Positions 2,693 to 15,225 of a stretch of 64,000 nt of DNA are shown one piece after another (position 1 is the stretch's first letter; the number at the start of each line of letters is the position of its first letter). The translations under genes and the position numbers were made by a program. The notes under the pieces are model-generated. The model saw only the letters and a list, made by a program, of their open reading frames with translations, had not been told where the DNA came from and searched no databases. The stretch is from Zhaonella formicivorans (lineage in GTDB: Bacteria > Bacillota > DUOV01 > Zhaonellaceae), in contig NZ_CP085524.1 in assembly GCF_004353525.1 (NCBI RefSeq), positions 1,708,142 through 1,772,141 on the forward strand, given 5' to 3'.

Positions 2693-3970
2693 TTAAGCAA
2701 TGCCAAAATATTCAGCGGCAACTTGAGCAGCGCAAGTCTCCCCGCAAACGGCACACTGGTGACCATTGTCGGTTTCCCTGCTTGCCAGCAATTTATCGGG
2801 ATAGAGAGCAAGCTCAACCTGCCTGTCCAGATCGAGGGCAACCCGGGCTTTGGCCATTTCCAAATCCCTATTCCAGGCATTTTTTCTGCGCCGGGCAATA
2901 TTGGCAGCATGGGCGGCAATCCTTGCCGCTATAACACCTGTTCTAACATCCTCTTCAGTTGGCAGTCCTAAATGTTCCGCGGGCGTTAGATAACACAAAA
3001 AGTCGGCACCGCACATGCCGGCATAAGCTCCGCCAATGGCGGCGGTAATGTGGTCATAACCCGGCGCTACGTCGGTGGCTAAAAAGCCCAAAATGTAGTA
3101 AGGTACGTTGTGACATAACCGTTTTTGCAACAGCATGGTAGCCTCAATATGATTTAACGGGACATGGCCGGGACCTTCCACCATAACCTGCACTCCTGCT
3201 TCCAACGCCCTTTTTACCAGTTGACCTGCAACCATTAACCCTTTAAGCTGCGGCTCATCCAGGGAGTCGGCAGTGGAACCGGGACGAATAGCATCGCCTA
3301 CGCTCAGGACCACATCATATTCCTTCATAATGGCCAGTAAACGGTCAAATTGTTCATAGAGTGGGTTCTCTTTCTGGTTATGCAGCATCCAGCCTGTCAT
3401 AAAAGAACCGCCCCGGCTGACGATATCGGTAACTCGGCCCGTCTTTTGCAGCGCATTCAGCACTTCAAAATTCAAAGCGCTGTGAATAGCCATAAAATCA
3501 AGGCCATCGGCCGCCTGCTTTTCGATAGTTTCAAACAGATCATCAGGTGTCATCGCCACGATGCTGCCTTTTTTCTGAATGGCTTCCACACCGGCCTGGT
3601 AAAGAGGTACACTACCCACCGCAACCGATGCCAAAGACAGCGTTTGCTTTCTCATGCCGTCAATATCTCCTCCTGTACTTAAATCCATGAAGGAGTGACA
3701 TCCTGCCTCTTCCGCAATTTTTAACTTTCTGGCCTCCATCTCCATTTGATCACGGTCACTGGAAGTGCCAATTAAAGCATTGACTTTAATGTCCAAACCT
3801 TTTCCGATACCGCAAAGCTTAGAACGATTCCGGTTTTTGTTCTTTGGAATAACAATGGTCCCTTCGGCAACTCCCTGCCTGATCAATTCCACATCCACAT
3901 TCTCCTGGGCAGCTACTATTTCCATCTCCTCAGTGATTTTCCCGGCACGGGCAGCTAAAACTTGAGTCAT
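2693..3970 (-). CDS. bzaB: ThiC-family radical SAM enzyme, probable BzaB (5-hydroxybenzimidazole synthesis)
   Basis: This is the second of two tandem ThiC homologues (425 aa). The ThiC fold is clear: MDLSTGGDID, MVEGPGHVPLNHIEA, APGYDHITAAIGGAYAG and TPAEHLGLP, with a C-terminal CAVCGETC cluster (CX2CX3C; E. coli ThiC has CX2CX4C). It diverges from canonical ThiC at positions usually conserved: the HCGVT region reads HSALN, and the GDGLRPG region reads GDAIRPG. In Moorella and Eubacterium, paired BzaA and BzaB convert AIR to 5-hydroxybenzimidazole for cobamides. The tandem copy, cobS/cobT neighbours and B12 riboswitches support that role over thiamin synthesis. Which copy is A or B is inferred only from gene order. 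Confidence 0.78.
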   Translation of the reverse strand: MTQVLAARAGKITEEMEIVAAQENVDVELIRQGVAEGTIVIPKNKNRNRSKLCGIGKGLDIKVNALIGTSSDRDQMEMEARKLKIAEEAGCHSFMDLSTGGDIDGMRKQTLSLASVAVGSVPLYQAGVEAIQKKGSIVAMTPDDLFETIEKQAADGLDFMAIHSALNFEVLNALQKTGRVTDIVSRGGSFMTGWMLHNQKENPLYEQFDRLLAIMKEYDVVLSVGDAIRPGSTADSLDEPQLKGLMVAGQLVKRALEAGVQVMVEGPGHVPLNHIEATMLLQKRLCHNVPYYILGFLATDVAPGYDHITAAIGGAYAGMCGADFLCYLTPAEHLGLPTEEDVRTGVIAARIAAHAANIARRRKNAWNRDLEMAKARVALDLDRQVELALYPDKLLASRETDNGHQCAVCGETCAAQVAAEYFGIA

Positions 3971-3994: not shown

Positions 3995-5293
3995 TTAACA
4001 AGCGTGTTTTTTATTACCCAGGTACTTGGAAACTATTTCCATAGCACAGTATGGCCCACACATTGAACATTTGGATGAAAAATCACCGCTTCTCTCTTTC
4101 CACACTCTCCTAGTTGTAGCAGGATCAATAGCCAGGGCAATCTGTTTTTCCCAGTCAAGATTTTTCCTGGCCACTGACATTTCCAGGTCCCATTTTACCG
4201 CTTGCGGCAATCCTTTCGCCAGGTCTCCACAATGGGCCGCAATCCGAGCGGCAATTACACCTTGCCGTACCTGTTCTAAATCCGGTAGGCCAATGTGTTC
4301 GGCAGGTGTCACGTAACAGATAAACTCCGCTCCTGCCCATGAACTTATTGCACCTCCGATGGCAGCGCTAATATGGTCGTAACCGGCAGCAGTATCGGTG
4401 ACTAAGGGGCCGAATACAAAATACGGAGCTCCTTTACATAGGCTCTTTTGCAGTGTTATTGTGGCCTTGAGCTGATCAAGGGGAACATGGCCAGGACCTT
4501 TCACCATTACCTGAACACCTGCTGCTCTCGCCCGCTGTACCAGTTCTCCCAAAATCACCAGCTCGTGTACTTGGGCGCCGTCTAAAGAATCGGCAAGGCA
4601 ACCCGGTCGCATGCCATCTGCGAAACTAAGGGTTACATCATATTTGGCGGCAATCTCAAGAACTCGATCAAAATTTTCATAGAGGGGATTTTCCTTTTGG
4701 TTATGTACCATCCACCCGATCAGGTGCGATCCACCGTAACTAACCAGCGGGTCGACTCTGCCTTCTCTCTTGGCCCGTTCTATGACATCCATGGTAGTGC
4801 CGCAGTGCAGCGCCAAAAAGTCAACCCCGTCAGCGGCCTGCCGTTCAATAACTTCAAAAAGTTCTTCCTCTTGCATCTTTAGAGATGAACCGTATTTTTC
4901 GCTTGCCTCTGCCAGCGCTTGATACAAGGGAAGTGTTCCCAACGGTTTAGAGGTAACAGCCAGTGCCTCTCTACGCATGGCATCAATAGGGCCGCTGACA
5001 CTTAAGTCCATGATGGCATCAGTGCCTGCCTCGACGGCGGCCCTTATTTTGGTTACTTCCTCGCTAATTCTGGCATTTTTGCCGTATAAGCCCACGCTTG
5101 CGCTGACCTTGGTCCGTAAGCCCTCACCAATGGCTACCGGTACAACATTATGATGGTTAGAATTGCAGAGTAGAACGATTTTCCCCTCAGCAACCCCCTG
5201 TCTGATAAATTCCGGTCTGACTCCCTCCTGCTCTGCTGCCTTTTCCATTTCCGGGGTTACAACACCCTCTAAGGCACTTCTTAACAATGACAT
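3995..5293 (-). CDS. bzaA: ThiC-family radical SAM enzyme, probable BzaA
   Basis: This is the first gene after the tandem cobalamin riboswitches (432 aa), with its ATG at 5293 behind AGGAGGGAG. ThiC landmarks are MDLSVSGPID, LHCGTTMDVIERAKREGRV, FADGMRPGCLADSLD, MVKGPGHVPLDQ, AAGYDHISAAIGGA and the C-terminal cluster CSMCGPYC. It is closer to canonical ThiC than its downstream partner, from which it is separated by 24 bp. ThiC and Bza enzymes use the same substrate, AIR, and S-adenosylmethionine radical chemistry. No TPP riboswitch is visible; control by cobalamin RNAs argues for lower-ligand synthesis. A role as plain ThiC with a specialised neighbour cannot be excluded from sequence alone. 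Confidence 0.78.
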   Translation of the reverse strand: MSLLRSALEGVVTPEMEKAAEQEGVRPEFIRQGVAEGKIVLLCNSNHHNVVPVAIGEGLRTKVSASVGLYGKNARISEEVTKIRAAVEAGTDAIMDLSVSGPIDAMRREALAVTSKPLGTLPLYQALAEASEKYGSSLKMQEEELFEVIERQAADGVDFLALHCGTTMDVIERAKREGRVDPLVSYGGSHLIGWMVHNQKENPLYENFDRVLEIAAKYDVTLSFADGMRPGCLADSLDGAQVHELVILGELVQRARAAGVQVMVKGPGHVPLDQLKATITLQKSLCKGAPYFVFGPLVTDTAAGYDHISAAIGGAISSWAGAEFICYVTPAEHIGLPDLEQVRQGVIAARIAAHCGDLAKGLPQAVKWDLEMSVARKNLDWEKQIALAIDPATTRRVWKERSGDFSSKCSMCGPYCAMEIVSKYLGNKKHAC

Positions 5294-6283: not shown

Positions 6284-7681
6284 TCACTTCGCCACACTAT
6301 GGCACGTGTGACAATCTTCCCCTTTCTGCTCGTCTGGCTTTTGCTGGCAGGCGCTGCCTTGAACCAGGGGTATGGGTACTTTGCGGCCGTCGATTTTGCT
6401 GTATAACACTGCCCTACCGTTTTCCAGGCGGACGTTCAGCATGGGCTCTCCCCTGAGAGTCAAGGCCACGATATCCCCGACTTTTAGTTCAGGAAAGTCT
6501 TTGTGGAAATAACCGGAGGCCCAAATAGCAGGGTCATCCCCTGAGGTTATGCGGGACCATTTGGGAGGCTCCTGGGTTGTGCCGTGGCAGTTGTAACAGC
6601 GGATAACCTGGGCCTTACTTTTGCTGCCGTACAGATGGCCGTCGCCCATAACCTCATTGCGAGTATGGCAGTCGATACAGTCCAGTTCGACCTCACATTT
6701 GGCATAACGCTCCTGGGCAATATAATACACCTGGTACCTGTCCGCAACAGGGCTGGTTACAGCGCTGGGCGGCACATCATCCCTGGGGTAAAACTCCATT
6801 TTGGCAATGGAATGCACACCCTGGTTGTGGCAGGCGTTGCACTGGTAGTAGGCTATGGCAGTAGTCAGCTGATGCTTGGGAGCATGCCCCGGTTCTGCTT
6901 TGTCAATAGTCGGATCTCCGCCCTGATAAGTACTGCCGGGTTGATATTGGACATGGCAGGCTGCACAACCGCCCAAATATTTTTGTTCTTCCGGTGGCCT
7001 ATTTACTCTGCTCGCCGAGGAATCTCCTTGGGTGGTATTCAAGTGGCAGCTGCTCAAGCAACTCCCGGCAAACTTAATACTATTGGCCTTTGTCTTATCT
7101 GCTGAAAACTGTTTCAGCGCCGGAGTCTGACCGCCCAGCCCTCTCTCTTCCACCAAATCGGGAGGCAGCTTTTCCGGGCTTTCAGTTACCGCCTGAACAG
7201 CAAAACGGCTCATCTTATCTTGAAACCAACCCAACGTTTTACCTACCTCCGTTATCTCCCCTGCTTTGGTGGCCATGAGAAGGAGCGGAACAGTGTCTGC
7301 CGGGCTTTTATAATCCGTACCCCTGCCGGTATGACACTGGTTATTTTCCCCGCCGCACGTCACTTGCACATACTGCAGTTCCGAAGGGTTTCTTTTACCG
7401 TAAAGGCCGGTATGGGCCGTATCTTTATCAAGAGCAAGCCCGTTTCCGCCATGGCAGGACACACAGCCTACGGCTTCTATGGGGTGGGACGGGCTAATCT
7501 CTTCAATACCCTGATGGCAGGTCAGGCAGCGTTCAACTTTGCCTGTAGGAAGAGTCAAATTTACAGGCTCTGCGGAATACTGTTTCCACTCTTGACCGGC
7601 TTCCTTTAATTCCGCCGCCACCAAAAGCAAGAAGGCGACCACAAATCCGGCCACAACAATAATCAGCTTTTTGTTATCCAT
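6284..7681 (-). CDS. Membrane-anchored multiheme cytochrome c of the Rieske/cytochrome b complex
   Basis: A 465-residue secreted electron carrier with one N-terminal hydrophobic anchor (LIIVVAGFVVAFLLLVAA). Heme-binding motifs in order are CLTCH, CVSCH, CGGENNQCH (CX6CH), CLSSCH (CX3CH), CAACH, CNACH, CIDCH, CYNCH and CHTCH: nine candidates, two with unusual spacing. The ATG at 7681 behind GGAGG is preferred to an upstream start at 7711. It is the last gene of the operon, directly after the subunit IV-like gene, so it probably accepts electrons from the Rieske/cytochrome b complex outside the membrane. It resembles the multiheme c subunit of clostridial bc complexes in position, but the final acceptor is unknown. 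Confidence 0.85.
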   Translation of the reverse strand: MDNKKLIIVVAGFVVAFLLLVAAELKEAGQEWKQYSAEPVNLTLPTGKVERCLTCHQGIEEISPSHPIEAVGCVSCHGGNGLALDKDTAHTGLYGKRNPSELQYVQVTCGGENNQCHTGRGTDYKSPADTVPLLLMATKAGEITEVGKTLGWFQDKMSRFAVQAVTESPEKLPPDLVEERGLGGQTPALKQFSADKTKANSIKFAGSCLSSCHLNTTQGDSSASRVNRPPEEQKYLGGCAACHVQYQPGSTYQGGDPTIDKAEPGHAPKHQLTTAIAYYQCNACHNQGVHSIAKMEFYPRDDVPPSAVTSPVADRYQVYYIAQERYAKCEVELDCIDCHTRNEVMGDGHLYGSKSKAQVIRCYNCHGTTQEPPKWSRITSGDDPAIWASGYFHKDFPELKVGDIVALTLRGEPMLNVRLENGRAVLYSKIDGRKVPIPLVQGSACQQKPDEQKGEDCHTCHSVAK

Positions 7682-7714
7682 GATGTCAATCCTCCGGCGA
7701 CAACAATGCAAAAT

Positions 7715-8110
7715 TTATAAATAATTGCCTACAAGAGTAAAGAGTACAGCACCGAGCATTAACATATAAAAAAACAGTTTTACAGTCACAGGCTTAAAAC
7801 GTCTTTCCAGATAAGGCACCCAAAATAAGAAAGCGACAAAAAGCGCAGGGAGAAATATCCCCGCCACAGGTACAGGCAGATAAAACAGCAGCAACTGGAT
7901 GCCGGAAAAAATCCAGGGAGCATGGATAATCTGCCCTTGTGCCCCAAGGCCTGCTGCCGGTCCTAAACCGGTTTTGAGCAGCACCGCCATGCCCAGAATG
8001 AGATCAAAGGAAATTAGGGCGGCTATAATTTCTCTTGATATCAGCTCTTTACGGGGCGCGTTAGGTTCGTGCCGAACAGCAGCTTCACCGGATTTTTGTA
8101 AGTTTTCCAC
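7715..8110 (-). CDS. Cytochrome bc complex subunit IV-like (C-terminal half of cytochrome b)
   Basis: About 131 residues with three predicted membrane helices (IIAALISFDLILGMAVLL; PVPVAGIFLPALFVAFLFWVPYL; VKLFFYMLMLGAVLFTLVG) and an APWIFSGIQLLLFYLP segment where subunit IV carries its quinol-site PEWYF-like loop. The longest frame opens at 8149 with TTG and no SD; GTG at 8108-8110 behind GGAGG is the better start. It lies between the cytochrome b6-like gene and the multiheme cytochrome. The split b6/subunit IV layout is as in heliobacterial and cyanobacterial complexes. The usual PEWY motif is replaced by APWI. Confidence 0.8.
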   Translation of the reverse strand: MENLQKSGEAAVRHEPNAPRKELISREIIAALISFDLILGMAVLLKTGLGPAAGLGAQGQIIHAPWIFSGIQLLLFYLPVPVAGIFLPALFVAFLFWVPYLERRFKPVTVKLFFYMLMLGAVLFTLVGNYL

Positions 8111-8175
8111 GAGCTGATCCTCCACATTAAAAATGGTACCTGCCAACAATTGGACCTAAGTAATAAAGGGAAAAA

Positions 8176-8202
8176 TGAGTCAGAGAACCGTCCCCTGACT
8201 CA
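8176..8202. repeat. REP-like 27-bp element, copy 2 (inverted relative to copy 1)
   Basis: This is an exact reverse complement of the element at 5977-6003. It overlaps the 3' end of the cytochrome b6-like gene and supplies its last codons and stop. The two copies bracket the subunit IV and multiheme cytochrome genes. Confidence 0.85.
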
Positions 8203-8845
8203 CGCCCCCGTCTTTGCGGACGCGGTAAAAATGCCAGAGCATGAGCAGGAGCAACACTGCCGGCAAAACTATGCAGTGCCAAATATAAATCCTGATCCCG
8301 GCCGTACTGCCGCCGGGTTCACCACCGAAAACAATGGCATTAAGCATATCTCCTGCCAGGGGAAACCGGTTTAAAATTCCGCCAACGACATTTTGGGCTA
8401 AGACAGCCGTTTGATCTCCCAGGAGGAGATACCCCGTGAAGTCAAGAAGCACCGTGAGGATTAAGAGGGCTACGCCAATAACCCAGTTGCCTTCCCGGGG
8501 AGGACGGTATGCTCCGTGCATAAAGACACGGAGCATATGGCCAAAAACCAATACAACCATCAGCTGTCCCGCCCATTTATGGATGCCCCTGATTAACCAG
8601 CCATAAGCAATTACCTGGTCGATGGTAATTATGGAACCATACTGGAGAGCTGCTTCGCCGGGCGTATAATAAAACAATAGTAAAGTTCCGCTGGCAACCA
8701 AGACCAGGAACATGAAAGCAGACAGTCCTCCCAGGCAAAAAGTCGGACTGAAGCCGATTGTCCCCGCTTTAATCTTGCGGGGATGGAGGTGGGCTAGAAA
8801 ACTAAAGAATCCTCTTTTGCGGGTTTTATGCTTGTCTGTTTTCAT
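8180..8845 (-). CDS. Cytochrome b6-like subunit of a quinol-oxidising bc complex
   Basis: Integral membrane diheme b subunit, 221 residues with four helices. Two His pairs ligate the hemes: GIHKWAGQLMVVLVFGHMLRVF, and IWHCIVLPAVLLLLMLWHFYRVRKDGG. It corresponds to the N-terminal half of cytochrome b, as in b6. It follows the Rieske gene by 22 bp and would oxidise menaquinol, passing electrons through Rieske to the multiheme cytochrome. The C-terminal residues SQGTVL and the TGA stop come from the REP-like element at 8176-8202, so the native end may have been replaced; homologues commonly end near RKxGISGPL. Confidence 0.9.
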   Translation of the reverse strand: MKTDKHKTRKRGFFSFLAHLHPRKIKAGTIGFSPTFCLGGLSAFMFLVLVASGTLLLFYYTPGEAALQYGSIITIDQVIAYGWLIRGIHKWAGQLMVVLVFGHMLRVFMHGAYRPPREGNWVIGVALLILTVLLDFTGYLLLGDQTAVLAQNVVGGILNRFPLAGDMLNAIVFGGEPGGSTAGIRIYIWHCIVLPAVLLLLMLWHFYRVRKDGGVSQGTVL

Positions 8846-8867
8846 TTTGCCTTCCTTTCCGAAAGTT

Positions 8868-9311
8868 TCAAACCGCCAAACGGCTGTCCTTGGGCACTTG
8901 CTGCTTTAAATCTACCACAATATTGCCTTTGCCATCGACTGTAACCTGTACCGGTTTCAGGGGGGCTGCAGCAGGTCCTTCCAGTACGCTGCCGTCAAGG
9001 CCGTATTTGCTGTTATGACACGGGCAAATGAAGATGCCCCTACCCTCGTCCCATTCCACAACTGAGCATCCCAGGTGACTGCACCTGCTATTTAGGGCAA
9101 AGAATCCCCTCGCATCGCGCACCAGCCAAGCGCCATTTCCCTTGTACACACCGGGTGCAGGGTAGTCTTCAGGCCTGCCGAAAGAGATCATGCCTTCCTG
9201 TTCATCGCCTGTCTTGCTGGTCAGAAAGGACAGTGCATCTTTAAAAAGGAAGAAACCTAATATTGAAAAACATAGCGAAATAAATTTTCTGCGCGAAAAC
9301 TTGTTGTCCAT
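8868..9311 (-). CDS. Rieske iron-sulfur protein
   Basis: [2Fe-2S] subunit of the quinol-oxidising complex. The N-terminus MDNKFSRRKFISLCFSILGFFLF is a twin-arginine-type signal anchor. Cluster motifs are CSHLGC and CPCHNS near residues 75-100, each with Cys and His ligands plus the disulfide cysteines. Length is ~147 aa, normal for small bacterial Rieske proteins. ATG at 9311 is chosen over TTG at 9326 because of GCGAGTG spacing and the fit of the signal. It sits between the NrfD-like gene and cytochrome b6 in the same operon, which links reductase and bc-complex genes in one transcript. Confidence 0.94.
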   Translation of the reverse strand: MDNKFSRRKFISLCFSILGFFLFKDALSFLTSKTGDEQEGMISFGRPEDYPAPGVYKGNGAWLVRDARGFFALNSRCSHLGCSVVEWDEGRGIFICPCHNSKYGLDGSVLEGPAAAPLKPVQVTVDGKGNIVVDLKQQVPKDSRLAV

Positions 9312-9328
9312 TACTTTCACTCGCAATT

Positions 9329-10534
9329 TTAGGGTTTAAAAGGCAGATAGCGTTCGCCAATTTTATAAGCAAGGAGGATAAAACCCACAGCACCAACAAT
9401 AACCGCAGTTTCGCCCAGGCTTGGTATATAGGCTGCGTAGCTTGCCATTCCTGTAGTTTTGTCTATATATAAGATCTGACCGGAACTTACCATATGCAGA
9501 CGCATAAATACCATGCCCAAGATGACGGAAAGAGCTGCCGCCAGGTTGAATTTTTCCCCTTTCCCCCTGCTGATTAAAAGGAGCGCTAAAGGAAGCAGCA
9601 GTCCAATTCCCACCTCAAAGACCCAATATGTGGGGGCCAAGGGTCCTGTCAAAAGCGCCATTGCCGCCTGCTGTTGACCGGGCACCCCTCCGTACAGGGA
9701 GGTAACAACTTTCCAGAAAGTCAGCACTAAAACAGTCCCGACTTCTGCAGCCAAAAGAATGCTTAAGGTGCCCGATAGCTTCTTCAGCCTGTGCTTGAAC
9801 ATGCTCCCGTTTTGGCAAAAACCTTGCTGACGCTTACTTGCAATTCGACGTTGTAAAAACCATGCAAGGATAATAAGGACTGCAGTACCGGACATAATGG
9901 CCGTAACAATAATGTAGACCGGCCAGTAGGGACCGTACCAGAAAGGCTTGGCATTGACAAAGCCGAAAACTGAACCAAGGTTGGTAGTGGCAGCAATGGC
10001 TAAAATGAATGTGATAGTTCCCATAAGCCTGGCTGGATGTTCTTTATGCCTGAGCATAAAGTACAATTCCAGCATTAAGCCCACAAGGTAGATCCCGTAA
10101 ATAGTGCCCATCCACCAAATTCCCGAGTGGAAATTAGGCGAAAGCAGCACATATATCAGCCTGAAGGGGTGGCCAAGCTCAACTGCCAGCACCGCAAAAG
10201 CAGAAATTAGCACCACTACCGCCAGATAAATGGCCCGCTGCCCGATAATTTCAAATCTCTCAATTCCAAAGACGTGTCCCAGCGAAGATACCAGGCAAAG
10301 GCCGCTGCAGGTTACAGCCAGGAGCACGTAGCCGGCGATTAAGATCCCCCAGGGGACCGCATCGGTTGTTCCAAAGGCCTCTTCCCCCCGGACAAGGAGG
10401 TCAACCGCCCCTGCAAGTCCAATAGCGGTGAGCAGTGCAGGGATTAACCAGCCTGCCAGTACCATTAATGCCCTGAATTTTTCTACAGCGCCTATATTAT
10501 CTAACCTTTTGTCAGACACCAGATTAATGCTCAT
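9329..10534 (-). CDS. NrfD/PsrC-type polytopic membrane subunit
   Basis: 401 residues with about ten hydrophobic helices, no signal peptide and few charged loops, typical of NrfD/PsrC/PhsC-like quinone-interacting subunits. Its start (MSINLVSDKRLD) overlaps the iron-sulfur subunit stop by 4 bp (ATGA), implying translational coupling. It should exchange electrons between menaquinone and the PhsB-like ferredoxin subunit. Conserved-site residues cannot be checked by eye, so whether it oxidises or reduces quinone is open. Confidence 0.86.
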   Translation of the reverse strand: MSINLVSDKRLDNIGAVEKFRALMVLAGWLIPALLTAIGLAGAVDLLVRGEEAFGTTDAVPWGILIAGYVLLAVTCSGLCLVSSLGHVFGIERFEIIGQRAIYLAVVVLISAFAVLAVELGHPFRLIYVLLSPNFHSGIWWMGTIYGIYLVGLMLELYFMLRHKEHPARLMGTITFILAIAATTNLGSVFGFVNAKPFWYGPYWPVYIIVTAIMSGTAVLIILAWFLQRRIASKRQQGFCQNGSMFKHRLKKLSGTLSILLAAEVGTVLVLTFWKVVTSLYGGVPGQQQAAMALLTGPLAPTYWVFEVGIGLLLPLALLLISRGKGEKFNLAAALSVILGMVFMRLHMVSSGQILYIDKTTGMASYAAYIPSLGETAVIVGAVGFILLAYKIGERYLPFKP

Positions 10535-11109
10535 GGCGCAATGCCCCCTTTGTCTACAGGACTGTCATAAACATAGTAGACATTTGGCTGCGTATTGGCT
10601 TGGGGCAGCTGTACCACTGCCCGGTGCTTCCTAAGCAGCCTGGAAACTTGGCTGTCCGGGTCATTTAAGTCACCGAACACCCTTGCTCCGCCCACACAGG
10701 TGCTGACGCAGGCGGGCTGCAGTCCTTCTTTCAGCCGGTGCACACACATGGTACATTTATCCGCCGTCTTTTCTTCGGGGTGATAGTAACGGGCGTTGTA
10801 GGGACAAGCCACCATACAGTATTTGCAGCCAATGCATTTTTTCTTGTTGACCAGCACTATTCCCTCCTCAGTCTGATAAGAAGCCCCGGTAGGGCACACA
10901 TTGACGCAGGGCGCGTTACCGCAGTGCATACAGTTGCCAGGCAGGAAGTCGGTTATCAGATCCGGGAATTTGCCCTTGGGCCCGTCCTTGGTTATCCAGT
11001 TTCTGCTTTTGCCGAGAGGAACTTCATTTTCCGCCCAGCAGCCCACTTGGCAGGCTTTGCAGTCAATACATCTGTAGACCAGCATTACAAAACCGTACCG
11101 CTTGCTCAT
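10531..11109 (-). CDS. Four-cluster ferredoxin subunit (PhsB/PsrB/DmsB type)
   Basis: 192 residues with cysteine groups CIDCKACQVGCW, CMHCGNAPCVNVCPTGA, CIGCKYCMVACPYNA and CTMCVHRLKEGLQPACVSTC, the standard set for four [4Fe-4S] clusters in molybdenum oxidoreductase beta subunits. It wires the catalytic subunit to the NrfD-like subunit. Start and stop each overlap their neighbours by 4 bp. Confidence 0.93.
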   Translation of the reverse strand: MSKRYGFVMLVYRCIDCKACQVGCWAENEVPLGKSRNWITKDGPKGKFPDLITDFLPGNCMHCGNAPCVNVCPTGASYQTEEGIVLVNKKKCIGCKYCMVACPYNARYYHPEEKTADKCTMCVHRLKEGLQPACVSTCVGGARVFGDLNDPDSQVSRLLRKHRAVVQLPQANTQPNVYYVYDSPVDKGGIAP

Positions 11110-13346
11110 GCGCTCTCACCCCCAAGGTAAGGCCTGACTGTAACGAAAGTTTCACTCAGCGCCTGACACCCGGTAACAGGGTCGGTGTGAGTTTCATGCA
11201 AACTTGAGTTGCTGGCCCCTTTGCCATAAGTGGTCTTCAAAGCCTTGCTGAGGTGCCCGAAACCTGCCGCCATAAATACGCAGTCCGGCCTGATACCTTC
11301 AGTCACATATGCCTTATTTATCACCTTGCCCACAGGGCTTTCAACGATCACAGGCTGCCCGTCTTTAATCCCCAGCTGCTTAGCTGCTTCCGCATTAATC
11401 CATACCGGGTTGTCGGGAGTTAATAGCGACAGCCAGAGATTGTTTTGGGTGCTGAACTGAGTATGCTGGGCTACCTTGCCGCTTAGCAAGTAGAATTTCC
11501 CCACAGGTGGCGCAGGGGGCTCCTGCCAAGCAGGGACCGGATTTTCTCCGGAGTTCGCCAAAGTCGAAGAACTGATCTCGATTTTGTTGCTGGCCGTCTG
11601 TAAGTAATAAGGATCGTGGTGCTCCTCCTGCAATTCAGCCCAGCCCTTTTCCAGCAGTTCTTCAAAACTAATCCCTACAGGCGCCAACTGTGCTTTGATG
11701 ACATCCCGCTCGTCCTGATATGGGAAATAGTCCCCGAGGCCCAGCCGTTCGCCTAATTCTTTCAGGATCATCAGCCCGCTCTTGGTATCATATAAAGGCT
11801 CCACCGCTGGACGGCGCAAAAATACCCTGTTGCCCGCCACAGACAGCGGGTCCCACCGCTCCAGGTAAGTGGACTCAGGCAAAATAACATCAGCATAATA
11901 AGCGGTGTCGTTGGGAATCACATCGATGACAGCCAGGAAATCCAGGTTTTTCAAAGCTGTCAATGTCTTTCTCCTCTCCGGAATGGACATCAGGGGGTTT
12001 TGCCGGTAGACCAGCCAGCCTTTGCCTTGATATGGCTCACCCGTAAGCAGCGCGTCCCTGATATCCTGAATGACACCGTATTTCAATGGGACAAGGGGAT
12101 GCTTCCAGGGCACTCCGTCCAGCCTCGGCGCGGTAACTGTGGGGTAAGGCGGCTGTGGAAGGGAACCCAAAGCGCTGCCTTCTTCCGGCACAGGCTGAAG
12201 CCCTCCCGGCGCAGCCCAGTTGCCCACCAGGGCATTGAGAATGGCAACGGTGCGTTCAGTCTGGAAAGAATTGACGAAGTTTGAAGTCCGCCAGTTTGGG
12301 TGTACTACTGCTGCCGGAGCTGCCGCCGCAAATTCCCTGGCTATCCTCCTGATGGTTTCTGCCGGGATGTCACACCTCTGGGCAGCCCATTCCGGTGAAT
12401 AAGGTTCAACAGCTTTGGCAAATTCCTCAAACCCGACTGTATGTTGTTGAATAAACTCCTGATTATACAGTTTCTCCTTGATGATGACATGGCCCATGGC
12501 CAGAAAGAAAGCCAAATCGGTTCCGGGCCGGATGGGCAGCCATTCCGCTGCTTTGGAGGCGGTAATTGTAAACCTGGGGTCCAGCATCACAATCTTTCCT
12601 CCCCTGGCGGCAAAATCCATCATGCGCTGGGTTTCGGAGTTGGAAATAGCTTCAGCCAGGTTCCGCCCGGCGTAAATAATATATTTGCAGTTTTCATAGT
12701 CCACTACCGGTTGAGCTACGCCGTAAGTAAACAGAAAAGCTATAGTCATGGCATTGAAACAGAGGCTGCGTTGTGTACCGTAGTTAGGCGTCCCGTAAGC
12801 CTTCAGCAAATTTTCAAAATACGGCTGAGTTAAATTATGGGTGGAACTCATAATCATGGCCTCAGGCCCGTACTGCTCTTTAATGCGCTGCATCTGCTCG
12901 GCGGTAAAGTCCAATGCTTCCTTCCAGGATACCCGGCGAAACTTTCCGCTCCCCCGCTCCCCAACCCGGATCATGGGAAATTTCAACCGGTCGGGGTCAT
13001 ATAACAGCTTAATTCCCGCGTTGCCGCGGGGACAAAGTTTGCCGCGGGAATTGATATTTTCCGGGTTTCCTTCCAGTTTTTTCACCATGCCGTCTTCCAC
13101 GGTAGCAATTATCCCACAGCGCCACACGCACATTTCACACACGCTGGGGACCTTATTCACTCCTTTTTTAGCTGCTGTTGCTGTCGTTTCTTCCGCCTTT
13201 CCCCCGGCAAAACTCATTTTTTGCAGCATGGCCCAGGAGAAAACAGCGCCGCTGCCGATCAGAAACTGCCTGCGGCTGAACTCTTTTCTCCAGAAAAAAG
13301 ACTCTCCTATGGAAGGTAAATCAGCAATATGCTTATCCTTGGCCAC
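11106..13346 (-). CDS. Molybdopterin catalytic subunit, thiosulfate/polysulfide reductase-like
   Basis: 746-residue DMSO-reductase-family enzyme exported by a Tat signal (FSRRQFLIGSGAVFSWAML). The N-terminal [4Fe-4S] motif is CEMCVWRCGI...KLCPRGN, and the molybdenum ligand region reads TQRSLCFNAMT, suggesting Cys ligation as in PhsA/PsrA. The C-terminal dinucleotide-binding domain ends SGKVAQHTQFSTQNN...DPVTGCQALSETFVTVRP. The GTG start at 13346 follows GGGGGTG. It lies directly after two YeeE-like transporter subunits, which supports a sulfur-compound substrate. Tetrathionate, polysulfide, arsenate or another oxyanion cannot be excluded. The enzyme faces outside the membrane. Confidence 0.86.
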   Translation of the reverse strand: MAKDKHIADLPSIGESFFWRKEFSRRQFLIGSGAVFSWAMLQKMSFAGGKAEETTATAAKKGVNKVPSVCEMCVWRCGIIATVEDGMVKKLEGNPENINSRGKLCPRGNAGIKLLYDPDRLKFPMIRVGERGSGKFRRVSWKEALDFTAEQMQRIKEQYGPEAMIMSSTHNLTQPYFENLLKAYGTPNYGTQRSLCFNAMTIAFLFTYGVAQPVVDYENCKYIIYAGRNLAEAISNSETQRMMDFAARGGKIVMLDPRFTITASKAAEWLPIRPGTDLAFFLAMGHVIIKEKLYNQEFIQQHTVGFEEFAKAVEPYSPEWAAQRCDIPAETIRRIAREFAAAAPAAVVHPNWRTSNFVNSFQTERTVAILNALVGNWAAPGGLQPVPEEGSALGSLPQPPYPTVTAPRLDGVPWKHPLVPLKYGVIQDIRDALLTGEPYQGKGWLVYRQNPLMSIPERRKTLTALKNLDFLAVIDVIPNDTAYYADVILPESTYLERWDPLSVAGNRVFLRRPAVEPLYDTKSGLMILKELGERLGLGDYFPYQDERDVIKAQLAPVGISFEELLEKGWAELQEEHHDPYYLQTASNKIEISSSTLANSGENPVPAWQEPPAPPVGKFYLLSGKVAQHTQFSTQNNLWLSLLTPDNPVWINAEAAKQLGIKDGQPVIVESPVGKVINKAYVTEGIRPDCVFMAAGFGHLSKALKTTYGKGASNSSLHETHTDPVTGCQALSETFVTVRPYLGGESA

Positions 13347-13358
13347 TGGTGCACCCCC

Positions 13359-13892
13359 TTATAAGTTGTTCTTTTCCAGGACATAGAAAAAAGTCAGGCA
13401 CATCAGGACCCACAACGACACTAGAAGCCCGGAATTCACATTTAAGACATCGCCAAAAGTTACACTGCCCCAATTAGCCAGTTTATTAATAGGTATAAAT
13501 ACTTGTTCGTAGGTAAGTCCGAAAATCAAGGCCCCCGTCAGGAAACCCAGCAAACCGGGAACAAGGTAGTCAATCTGTCCGCTGCCGCCACCGGCGACAC
13601 AGGTACCCGGTCAGAAGCCGGCAACAGCCATACCTACACCGAAGATAATACCGCCGATCAGGTTTCCTGCCAAATAAGTTTCATTTACTTTGGTCATTTC
13701 CAGCACACCCAGCCAGTTCAGGCCGTAAACTCCTACCATGCCTACGCATAAACCGGTCATCATGAATTTCAAAACAGTCAGATCTTTAAACCGGAACACA
13801 TTGCTAATAGTTGCATACTGGGTTAAACCGCCTTTTTGCAGGGCCCAGCCAAACCCAAAACCTAAGATCAGCGCCCAAAGGATGCCTTCCAT
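13359..13892 (-). CDS. YeeE/YedE (TsuA-like) sulfur-compound transporter, C-terminal half, predicted selenoprotein
   Basis: Read as one frame with TGA at 13611-13613 as selenocysteine, the protein has 177 residues: ...GIIFGVGMAVAGF-U-PGTCVAGGGSGQIDYLVPGLLGF..., followed by two more helices and LWVLMCLTFFYVLEKNNL. In YeeE/YedE proteins this site is G-[YF]-C-P-G-T, and TsuA cysteines of this type act in thiosulfate passage. The TGA replaces exactly that cysteine and the frame continues without any other lesion. A SECIS-like hairpin starts nine bases after the TGA. ATG at 13892 overlaps the upstream half's stop (TGATG). Without Sec insertion this would be a 93-residue truncated product. The alternative is a recent nonsense mutation. 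Confidence 0.85.
13575..13602 (-). promoter_or_regulatory. SECIS-like hairpin downstream of in-frame UGA
   Basis: On the minus strand CUGU (13602-13599) pairs with ACAG (13578-13575) and inner GCCG (13595-13592) pairs with CGGC (13587-13584), leaving apical loop GUGG. The first loop base is the 20th nucleotide after the UGA. An apical G/U loop at about this distance is what bacterial SelB recognition requires. Confidence 0.65.
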
Positions 13893-14425
13893 CAACGCCA
13901 CCTCCCGCGGAACATGATTAAGCTAGTCAGAATTCCTGAAGCAAACAACCCGGCTATAAAGAGGAATCCGGCCGGCGCCAGCTGCAAGGAACCGGCAATG
14001 GCCAAACCGCTGGTACATCCGCCTGCAATCCCAGCCCCGTATTCCAGGATAATACCTCCCAGAAAAGCTAATACCCAACGTTTCCATACGCTGCTGCCAT
14101 GATTTTCTTTCCAGTGGTCCGGTATGGATTTCCACTTAAGTTGCCCTGAAGAAGCGGCTGCCACCATGGCTCCCAAAAATACGCCTATCATCAGGATCAC
14201 TTGCCAAGTAATTGCAGCCGGCATGATATATTTAAAATACATGCTTTCAGCAACTTTGCTGCTGAAAGCCCCCGCGATTAAACCTGCCAAATTCTCGAAC
14301 GAGCCGGAGGCGCCAAGCAATTGGTCAGCAAATAAAAGCCCCAACACATAGACCAGTCCCAGCAAAACTCCGGCGCTGTAAGGCGACCACCTGGGTTTTT
14401 TCAGCTGCTCAATTAACCAGTTCAC
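13892..14425 (-). CDS. YeeE/YedE (TsuA-like) sulfur-compound transporter, N-terminal half
   Basis: 177 residues with about five membrane helices and the family motif GAGIAGGCTSGLAIAGSLQLAPAGFLFIAGLF near residues 130-160, whose Cys matches one of the essential cysteines of YeeE transporters. Fused TsuA/YeeE proteins contain both halves in one chain of about 350 residues; here they are separate coupled genes. It overlaps the triheme cytochrome gene by 4 bp. It probably imports thiosulfate or a related sulfur species for, or exchanges product with, the adjacent reductase. Selenium-compound transport is an alternative because YedE relatives occur with selenium genes. Confidence 0.87.
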   Translation of the reverse strand: MNWLIEQLKKPRWSPYSAGVLLGLVYVLGLLFADQLLGASGSFENLAGLIAGAFSSKVAESMYFKYIMPAAITWQVILMIGVFLGAMVAAASSGQLKWKSIPDHWKENHGSSVWKRWVLAFLGGIILEYGAGIAGGCTSGLAIAGSLQLAPAGFLFIAGLFASGILTSLIMFRGRWR

Positions 14426-15225
14426 TGTTTTTCATCCCCCTTGTCAGGACTTGCAACCAACTTGGATAAAATCCGCTCTCCTCCTGGCCGGGCCAGGATG
14501 CTGTCGATGACATCAAGCTCATCATAAGAGAGACCTAACTTGGTAAAGCCAATTGTCCCCCCGGCTTCTTCTCTGGCAGCTGTCAACTCCCTGGAAGCAA
14601 AGACAATCCGCTGCAGGTCATATTTCCAGACGAGATACAGCAGCACAAGCAAAATACCAGCGTTTAAAATGATAAGGATGATATTGCCTTTATTCCTTTC
14701 CAGCCCCTGGAACTTTAGCAGTTCTCTTTCATAATCTATCAAGTCTTTTTCCGGCACTTTTTCAGCGGGAACCAGCTCCAGTTTGGCCGCCTGGCCGCTA
14801 TTACCTCCACCTGAGGCACCTCCCCCACTGCTAGCGGCAGTCAAAGTGGCGCCATAGACCTTAGCTTTTTCCTCAAGGTCGGTTACATGACAGCTGCCAC
14901 AGCTACCCTGGATATCAGCAAAAGGCTCTTTAAGTCCCTGGTGGGCCTTGGTCTTATCCATAGAGCTGACAACTCCGCCATGGCAAAATTCACAAAAGTC
15001 GCCAAAGGCGTGGTTGATATGCCAATCGCCCGAATTTGCTACGGAATTTGCACCCTTTACTTCATGACAGCTTTTACATGATGACAGTGAAGCGCCACAA
15101 GCGGCCCGGGCATCTTCAGGGTAAAAAAACAGAGACAATACCAATACACAAAACAGCGCTACTGCAAATTTCAACAACCCTTCTTTTTGCAAAACAAAAT
15201 TGCACCTCCTAGCTAAATTTTTCAC
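14422..15225 (-). CDS. Triheme membrane-anchored cytochrome c
   Basis: 267 residues: signal sequence (FAVALFCVLVLSLFF), three heme motifs CKSCH, CEFCH and CGSCH within about residues 50-115, a Gly/Ser linker (SSGGGASGGGNSG), a single transmembrane helix (IILIILNAGILLVLLYLVW) and a 75-residue cytoplasmic tail. It is the first gene of the sulfur-respiration operon. It probably transfers electrons at the outer membrane face to or from the reductase or bc complex. The long cytoplasmic tail has no motif I recognise. Confidence 0.84.
   Translation of the reverse strand: MKNLARRCNFVLQKEGLLKFAVALFCVLVLSLFFYPEDARAACGASLSSCKSCHEVKGANSVANSGDWHINHAFGDFCEFCHGGVVSSMDKTKAHQGLKEPFADIQGSCGSCHVTDLEEKAKVYGATLTAASSGGGASGGGNSGQAAKLELVPAEKVPEKDLIDYERELLKFQGLERNKGNIILIILNAGILLVLLYLVWKYDLQRIVFASRELTAAREEAGGTIGFTKLGLSYDELDVIDSILARPGGERILSKLVASPDKGDEKQ

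Follow-up and report, generated by a model that had tools for sequence, protein, structure and literature searches.

Does a YeeE-family gene with a TGA in the middle of its reading frame represent a broken gene, or does it encode a selenoprotein? The question is raised by a frame on the reverse strand of the window (the whole 64,000-nucleotide stretch of the Zhaonella formicivorans genome analyzed here), which runs from 13892 to 13359 and comprises 93 open codons, a TGA at codon 94 (13613-13611), a further 83 codons and a TAA. Read through, it would yield a protein of 177 aa with one Sec codon, the N-terminal, PmpB-like half of a YeeE protein (PF04143). On comparative grounds we hold it to be nearly certain that the UGA of codon 94 is decoded as selenocysteine and that the apparently broken gene encodes a selenoprotein. 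What the protein does is treated below with more reserve.

The in-frame TGA and its decoding

The TGA at 13611-13613 is the only one in the frame and lies within GMAVAGF-U-PGTC. In the read-through translation the match to PF04143 spans the TGA in one stretch (residues 27-170, 56 bits, cut-off 27). The original prediction had held that a single TGA interrupts the frame, that it falls on the cysteine of a conserved motif and that normal coding sequence follows. All three points are borne out, by the translation, by the cysteine found at this column in other homologues, and by the PF04143 match together with purifying selection 3' of the TGA, respectively.

Twelve further genomes, seven from the window's phylum (398 genomes searched) and five from Chloroflexota, likewise have TGA at this column, which is thus not a product of chance. 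In the window's phylum a single TGA is present in G039, G080, G120 and G111, with proteins 67-73% identical, and in G005, G154 and G230, with proteins 50-51% identical; the Chloroflexota forms (G647, G427, G696, G717 and G776) show 51-59% identity. PGT follows directly after every TGA, the motif being FUPGT in the window and TUPGT or YUPGT in the relatives, and a second stop occurs in none of the 13 Sec genes. A TGC or TGT in place of the TGA, or homologues broken elsewhere in the gene, had been named at the outset as signs against a selenoprotein; instead, the 12 relatives keep TGA at the codon and none of the homologues is broken at another site. A sequencing error at the TGA is ruled out by the 13 independent genomes.

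In the closest pair, G005 and G154, the codons 3' of the TGA have a dN of 0.02 and a dS of 0.65, indicating strong purifying selection, and in more distant pairs third-position differences far exceed protein differences. One possible explanation of the locus is that the TGA is a true stop, leaving a pseudogene or a naturally truncated fragment of 93 residues only. Calling of ORFs with table 11 agrees with this in splitting the gene into two separate frames, 13611-13901 and 13359-13553, but 13 genomes share the TGA at this position, none with another stop, the protein is conserved beyond it to the degree just given, and the genome has a complete Sec machinery. We regard truncation as extremely unlikely.

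The genome of Z. formicivorans (3.31 Mb, one contig) carries selA, selB and tRNA-Sec clustered at 2,633,791-2,637,307. Scores are well above thresholds for selA (618 bits, cut-off 268), selB (400 bits, cut-off 242), tRNA-Sec (selC; 73.6 bits, gathering 47) and selD (401 bits, cut-off 125), and the four genes in which the original prediction saw its first check are all present. The selD gene carries one in-frame TGA of its own, as is common for selenophosphate synthetase among Sec users. At locus L060 (G000:C1, about 2511176-2512102), a hairpin lies 3' of the in-frame TGA of selD, and selD is adjoined by a TusA/YedF-like frame (GLACPEPVISTKKALEQ), as in selenium-metabolism neighbourhoods. In the 13 Sec genomes, selA was found without exception.

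Given that the Sec assignment rests on sequence comparison, the UGA might also be read as near-cognate Trp or Cys with no part played by the Sec machinery. However, the column is Cys in homologues, every Sec genome has selA, a covarying SECIS-like hairpin follows the UGA at the spacing seen in fdhF, and TGA terminates ordinary genes here, e.g. that of the C-terminal half at 13892-13894; near-cognate readthrough is accordingly given very little credence.

Cysteine forms of the protein are also found. The alignment proposed with the original prediction shows TGA at the column for 13 genomes, whereas Cys is found there in G309 (54% identity, no stop), G623, G454 and G398 of the Chloroflexota, G399 (the genome of the Sandaracinaceae MAG L010) and distant homologues. 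A search for selA in G399 gave no match. The Cys forms of G309, G398, G623 and G454 occur in selA-positive genomes, and the operon can therefore do without Sec. A tree of 35 N-terminal halves, several of its forks without resolution, calls for about four switches between Sec and Cys (bootstrap range 3-5), which suggests that the two residues have probably been exchanged more than once. In the window's phylum, 16 other PF04143 regions with TGAs, among the matches listed, had none at the GCxSG motif, and their in-frame TGAs had the appearance of gene boundaries or of frames that do not code. A plasmid search returned only distant relatives (34-39%).

A hairpin 3' of the UGA

Folding of the 13 Sec genes with RNAalifold gave a bacterial SECIS-like hairpin, located in the window at 13583-13599 on the reverse strand. 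Its 7-bp stem is formed by 13599-13593 with 13589-13583, and its GGU loop (13592-13590) starts 18 nt after the UGA; the consensus has seven pairs, a three-base loop beginning with GG and two further outer pairs. Within the seven-pair stem 91.2% of cells pair and both-side (compensatory) changes are seen in four pairs, while none of 500 shuffles came up to the observed values for the share of paired cells, for double-change cells or for covariation. Stems shifted by 1-3 columns scored lower, although the one at -3 was still 81% paired, the region being a G+C-rich repeat. The inner stem pairs are broken in the Cys homologues, and the stems of G111, G647 and G427 are weaker.

Taken singly, the window hairpin is no stronger than shuffled sequence (z -0.72) and that of G005 is stronger (z -4.32); nulls built from synonymous codons are only weakly exceeded gene by gene (P 0.04-0.35). 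The case for the hairpin is therefore a comparative one. The original prediction was right in placing a hairpin 3' of the UGA, but its pairing was slightly off: the conserved element is the 7-bp stem with the GGU loop, and the outer CUGU/ACAG stem, not being conserved among the relatives, was rejected as part of the SECIS.

An Rfam search of the window and its relatives gave no relevant match. A stretch of E. coli fdhF (the gene was confirmed by search), which we take to lie directly 3' of the fdhF UGA, folds with the loop GGUC 18 nt into the stretch, and the loop spacing of the window hairpin is the same. A similar stem is present in the selD gene of the Z. formicivorans genome at a nearly equal distance. 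On this cross-gene comparison, the hairpin has the two features of a bacterial SECIS, a G in the apical loop and the right distance from the UGA. SelA, SelB and tRNA-Sec would decode codon 94 with the aid of this hairpin just 3' of it.

Partner half, operon and proposed function

The C-terminal, PmpA-like half of YeeE is encoded immediately upstream of the Sec gene (13892-14425, reverse strand; PF04143 positions 169-308, 70.9 bits), and both halves score above the PF04143 cut-off. The start of the Sec gene overlaps the end of the C-half gene by one base (TGATG). In YeeE of S. thermophila the relay runs from Cys293 (first) over Cys91 (second) to Cys22 (third) (PMC11073785). Cys91 is required, and it is debated whether sulfur is relayed by hydrogen bonds or covalently (PMC11073785, PMC11582611). 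The split proteins PmpA and PmpB have one cysteine per half, matching Cys293 and Cys91, and are without a settled substrate, while YeeE-like import is documented in E. coli and H. denitrificans (PMC11582611).

A phmmer alignment, with homology over residues 6-104, places Sec94 at Cys91 of the S. thermophila protein, which supports the earlier reading of the TGA as standing at a transport cysteine. Thr24 aligns with position 22, the Cys22 site (Ala in the crystallised mutant), and the third relay cysteine is absent. In the partner, Cys137 within AGGCTSG (codon 14015-14017) is by motif the putative equivalent of Cys293; a pattern search found this motif in the loci of 16 of 17 relatives. Adjacent halves with a Cys91-type column (Sec here) and a Cys293-type column correspond to the definition of split YeeE, i.e. 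PmpA/PmpB (PMC11582611). The Sec half scores far below cut-off against the TsuA equivalogs NF052577 (34.6 of 400 bits) and NF041049 (23.2 of 645 bits), and in place of the TsuA triad C22/C91/C293 there are Thr24, Sec94 and the Cys137 of the partner. An AlphaFold2 model of the Sec half, with six sequences as input, had a pLDDT of 45.5 and was set aside.

The surrounding genes, all on the reverse strand, form a conserved block. Its first gene (14422-15225, assigned by synteny) encodes a small c-type cytochrome with three CxxCH motifs; the C-half and then the N-half of YeeE follow it in all 13 Sec loci, and likewise in those loci with Cys that come from G309, L009, L010, G623 and G454. Next after the N-half comes the catalytic subunit of a Phs/Psr-like molybdopterin oxidoreductase (11106-13346; Molybdopterin, Molydop_binding and Fe4S4 domains), with a twin-arginine-like signal (SRRQFLIGSG); its best NCBIfam model is PhsA (PRK15488), at 625.4 bits and below the cut-off of 694. 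Of the 13 Sec loci, 12 have this gene in the same place, as does every listed Cys locus that reaches that far. The exception is G039 (L085, G039:C13:32000-50000), in which Rieske and cytochrome b genes stand directly after the Sec gene and those for the molybdoenzyme, Fe-S and NrfD subunits are missing in between.

Further downstream the window encodes a ferredoxin-type Fe-S subunit (10531-11109; Fer4_11, TtrB/NrfC/DsrO-like), an NrfD/PsrC-type membrane subunit (9329-10534; PF03916, 95.7 bits), a Rieske Fe-S protein (8868-9326; PF00355), an ExtP-like cytochrome b6-type subunit (8180-8845; PF13631/PF00033; ExtP 223 bits, cut-off 290), a small membrane protein (7715-8149) that matches no family but keeps its place in the block across loci from the window's phylum, and an ExtM-like multihaem c-type cytochrome with seven CxxCH motifs (6284-7711; Cytochrome_C7; ExtM 166 bits, cut-off 800). 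The Fe-S, NrfD, Rieske, cytochrome b and multihaem cytochrome genes are found downstream in most loci, partly rearranged in Chloroflexota. The stretch 6284-9326 constitutes a bc-like module related to Geobacter ExtO/P/M and is here joined to the Phs/Psr-like reductase. Two adjacent ThiC-like paralogues, named from sequence alone, lie at 3995-5293 (432 aa) and 2693-3970 (425 aa). A search of the window against a defence-system library gave no match.

We infer that the N-half pairs with the C-half in a single pore, in which Sec94, as the second, central relay residue, would lie beside Cys137, the first. The pair would carry a sulfur species in reduced form (thiosulfate, polysulfide or sulfane sulfur) through the membrane for the respiratory chain of the operon, and that it is a sulfur-compound transporter serving this chain appears reasonably probable. 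At neutral pH most of a selenol is deprotonated, and it would serve poorly as the donor that the S-H...S hydrogen-bond model needs. The low-pKa selenolate could rapidly take up and pass on sulfane sulfur through transient Se-S bonds, not only through S-H...S hydrogen bonds; we put forward this covalent relay tentatively. With the same caution, a central-pore selenolate relay may couple the passage of sulfane sulfur through the membrane to respiration by the Phs/Psr-like enzyme in two bacterial phyla.

Selenium supply limits Sec synthesis, which would suit a Sec residue acting as a selenium sensor that gates synthesis of the transporter to times of selenium plenty; the pair might also, like YedE, carry selenium compounds. 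The family includes YedE, a proposed selenium transporter (PMC5322559), and the bc-like module has similarities to the ext cluster of Geobacter, which is tied to selenite/tellurite (PMC5877670). On the other hand, the selenium YedE model NF033796 gave only 36.4 and 29 bits against a cut-off of 350, the operon is unchanged where the residue is Cys, and the best model for its enzyme is the thiosulfate reductase PhsA; a role centred on selenium is thus considered unlikely. The pair may alternatively export intracellular sulfide or sulfur, or protect against it, rather than handle supply or product uptake for the Phs-like enzyme. Sequence gives no direction of transport, and the substrate of PmpAB is not settled (PMC11582611), but the co-encoded reductase bears an export signal and its sulfur chemistry therefore probably takes place outside the membrane, so that export is given perhaps a minor chance. 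The preferred reading remains transport of sulfur compounds for the respiratory chain.

Most known selenoproteins are redox enzymes, and a transporter with Sec in its conduction path, here one whose homologue has a solved structure, would be unusual. Natural Sec/Cys pairs at one position in similar operons offer a direct handle on the debate between hydrogen-bond and covalent relay. Automatic annotation splits or truncates the Sec gene and so hides what is likely a sulfur-respiration operon.

Relation to known systems

A predicted Sec-containing PF04143 protein, WP_012471001.1, is listed in reviews (PMC13188914, PMC9312934), and a 2026 table gives GUxSG as the motif of this family (PMC13188914). 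Differing Sec sites and motifs within one domain are taken to denote different subfamilies in the 2022 review (PMC9312934). The present proteins lack GUxSG, having FUPGT in the window and TUPGT or YUPGT in the relatives. The listed protein presumably comes from Trichlorobacter (Geobacter) lovleyi; PF04143 is absent from the plasmid sequence of that species, the only one of its sequences searched. A literature text search gave no account of the split UPGT form, though an earlier one may exist in Haft's selenoprotein-family papers. The original prediction knew of no characterised Sec-containing YeeE transporter. This needs amending in that a PF04143 Sec family with GUxSG had already been predicted, and it holds for the split UPGT form, which is unlisted in the available parts of the reviews. 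Predicted Sec in PF04143 is thus already known, and what appears to be new is the UPGT motif, the split half-protein and the defined operon.

Like the listed family, the Z. formicivorans protein belongs to PF04143 and has a predicted Sec in place of a conserved Cys, but it has (F/Y/T)-U-P-G-T and is a separate N-half; the two are set apart by the listed motif, and the available parts of the reviews describe no operon for the GUxSG family (PMC13188914, PMC9312934). The operon shares with PhsABC/PsrABC its combination of molybdoenzyme, Fe-S and NrfD subunits, and differs in its PhsA score (625 against 694) and in its link to a bc-like module and a Sec transporter. The Rieske protein, cytochrome b and multihaem cytochrome of the module resemble ExtO, ExtP and ExtM of the Geobacter extHIJKLMNOPQS cluster, although they score below the family cut-offs; in the available part of that description, Sec is predicted in a cytochrome, ExtKL, and neither a YeeE nor a Phs-like gene is mentioned (PMC5877670).

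The two transporter halves themselves come close to PmpA/PmpB (PMC11582611) in being encoded by adjacent half-genes with one conserved Cys column each and no Cys22, whereas here the PmpB-like half has Sec, the halves are longer (177 aa against about 130) and the operon is a different one. TsuA/YeeE of S. thermophila and E. coli (PDB 6LEO/6LEP, 8J4C, 8K1R; PMC11073785) is homologous, with Sec94 at the position of Cys91, but it is a single chain of nine helices with three relay cysteines, in contrast to the two chains encoded here, with Sec as the second relay residue and Thr24 at the third.
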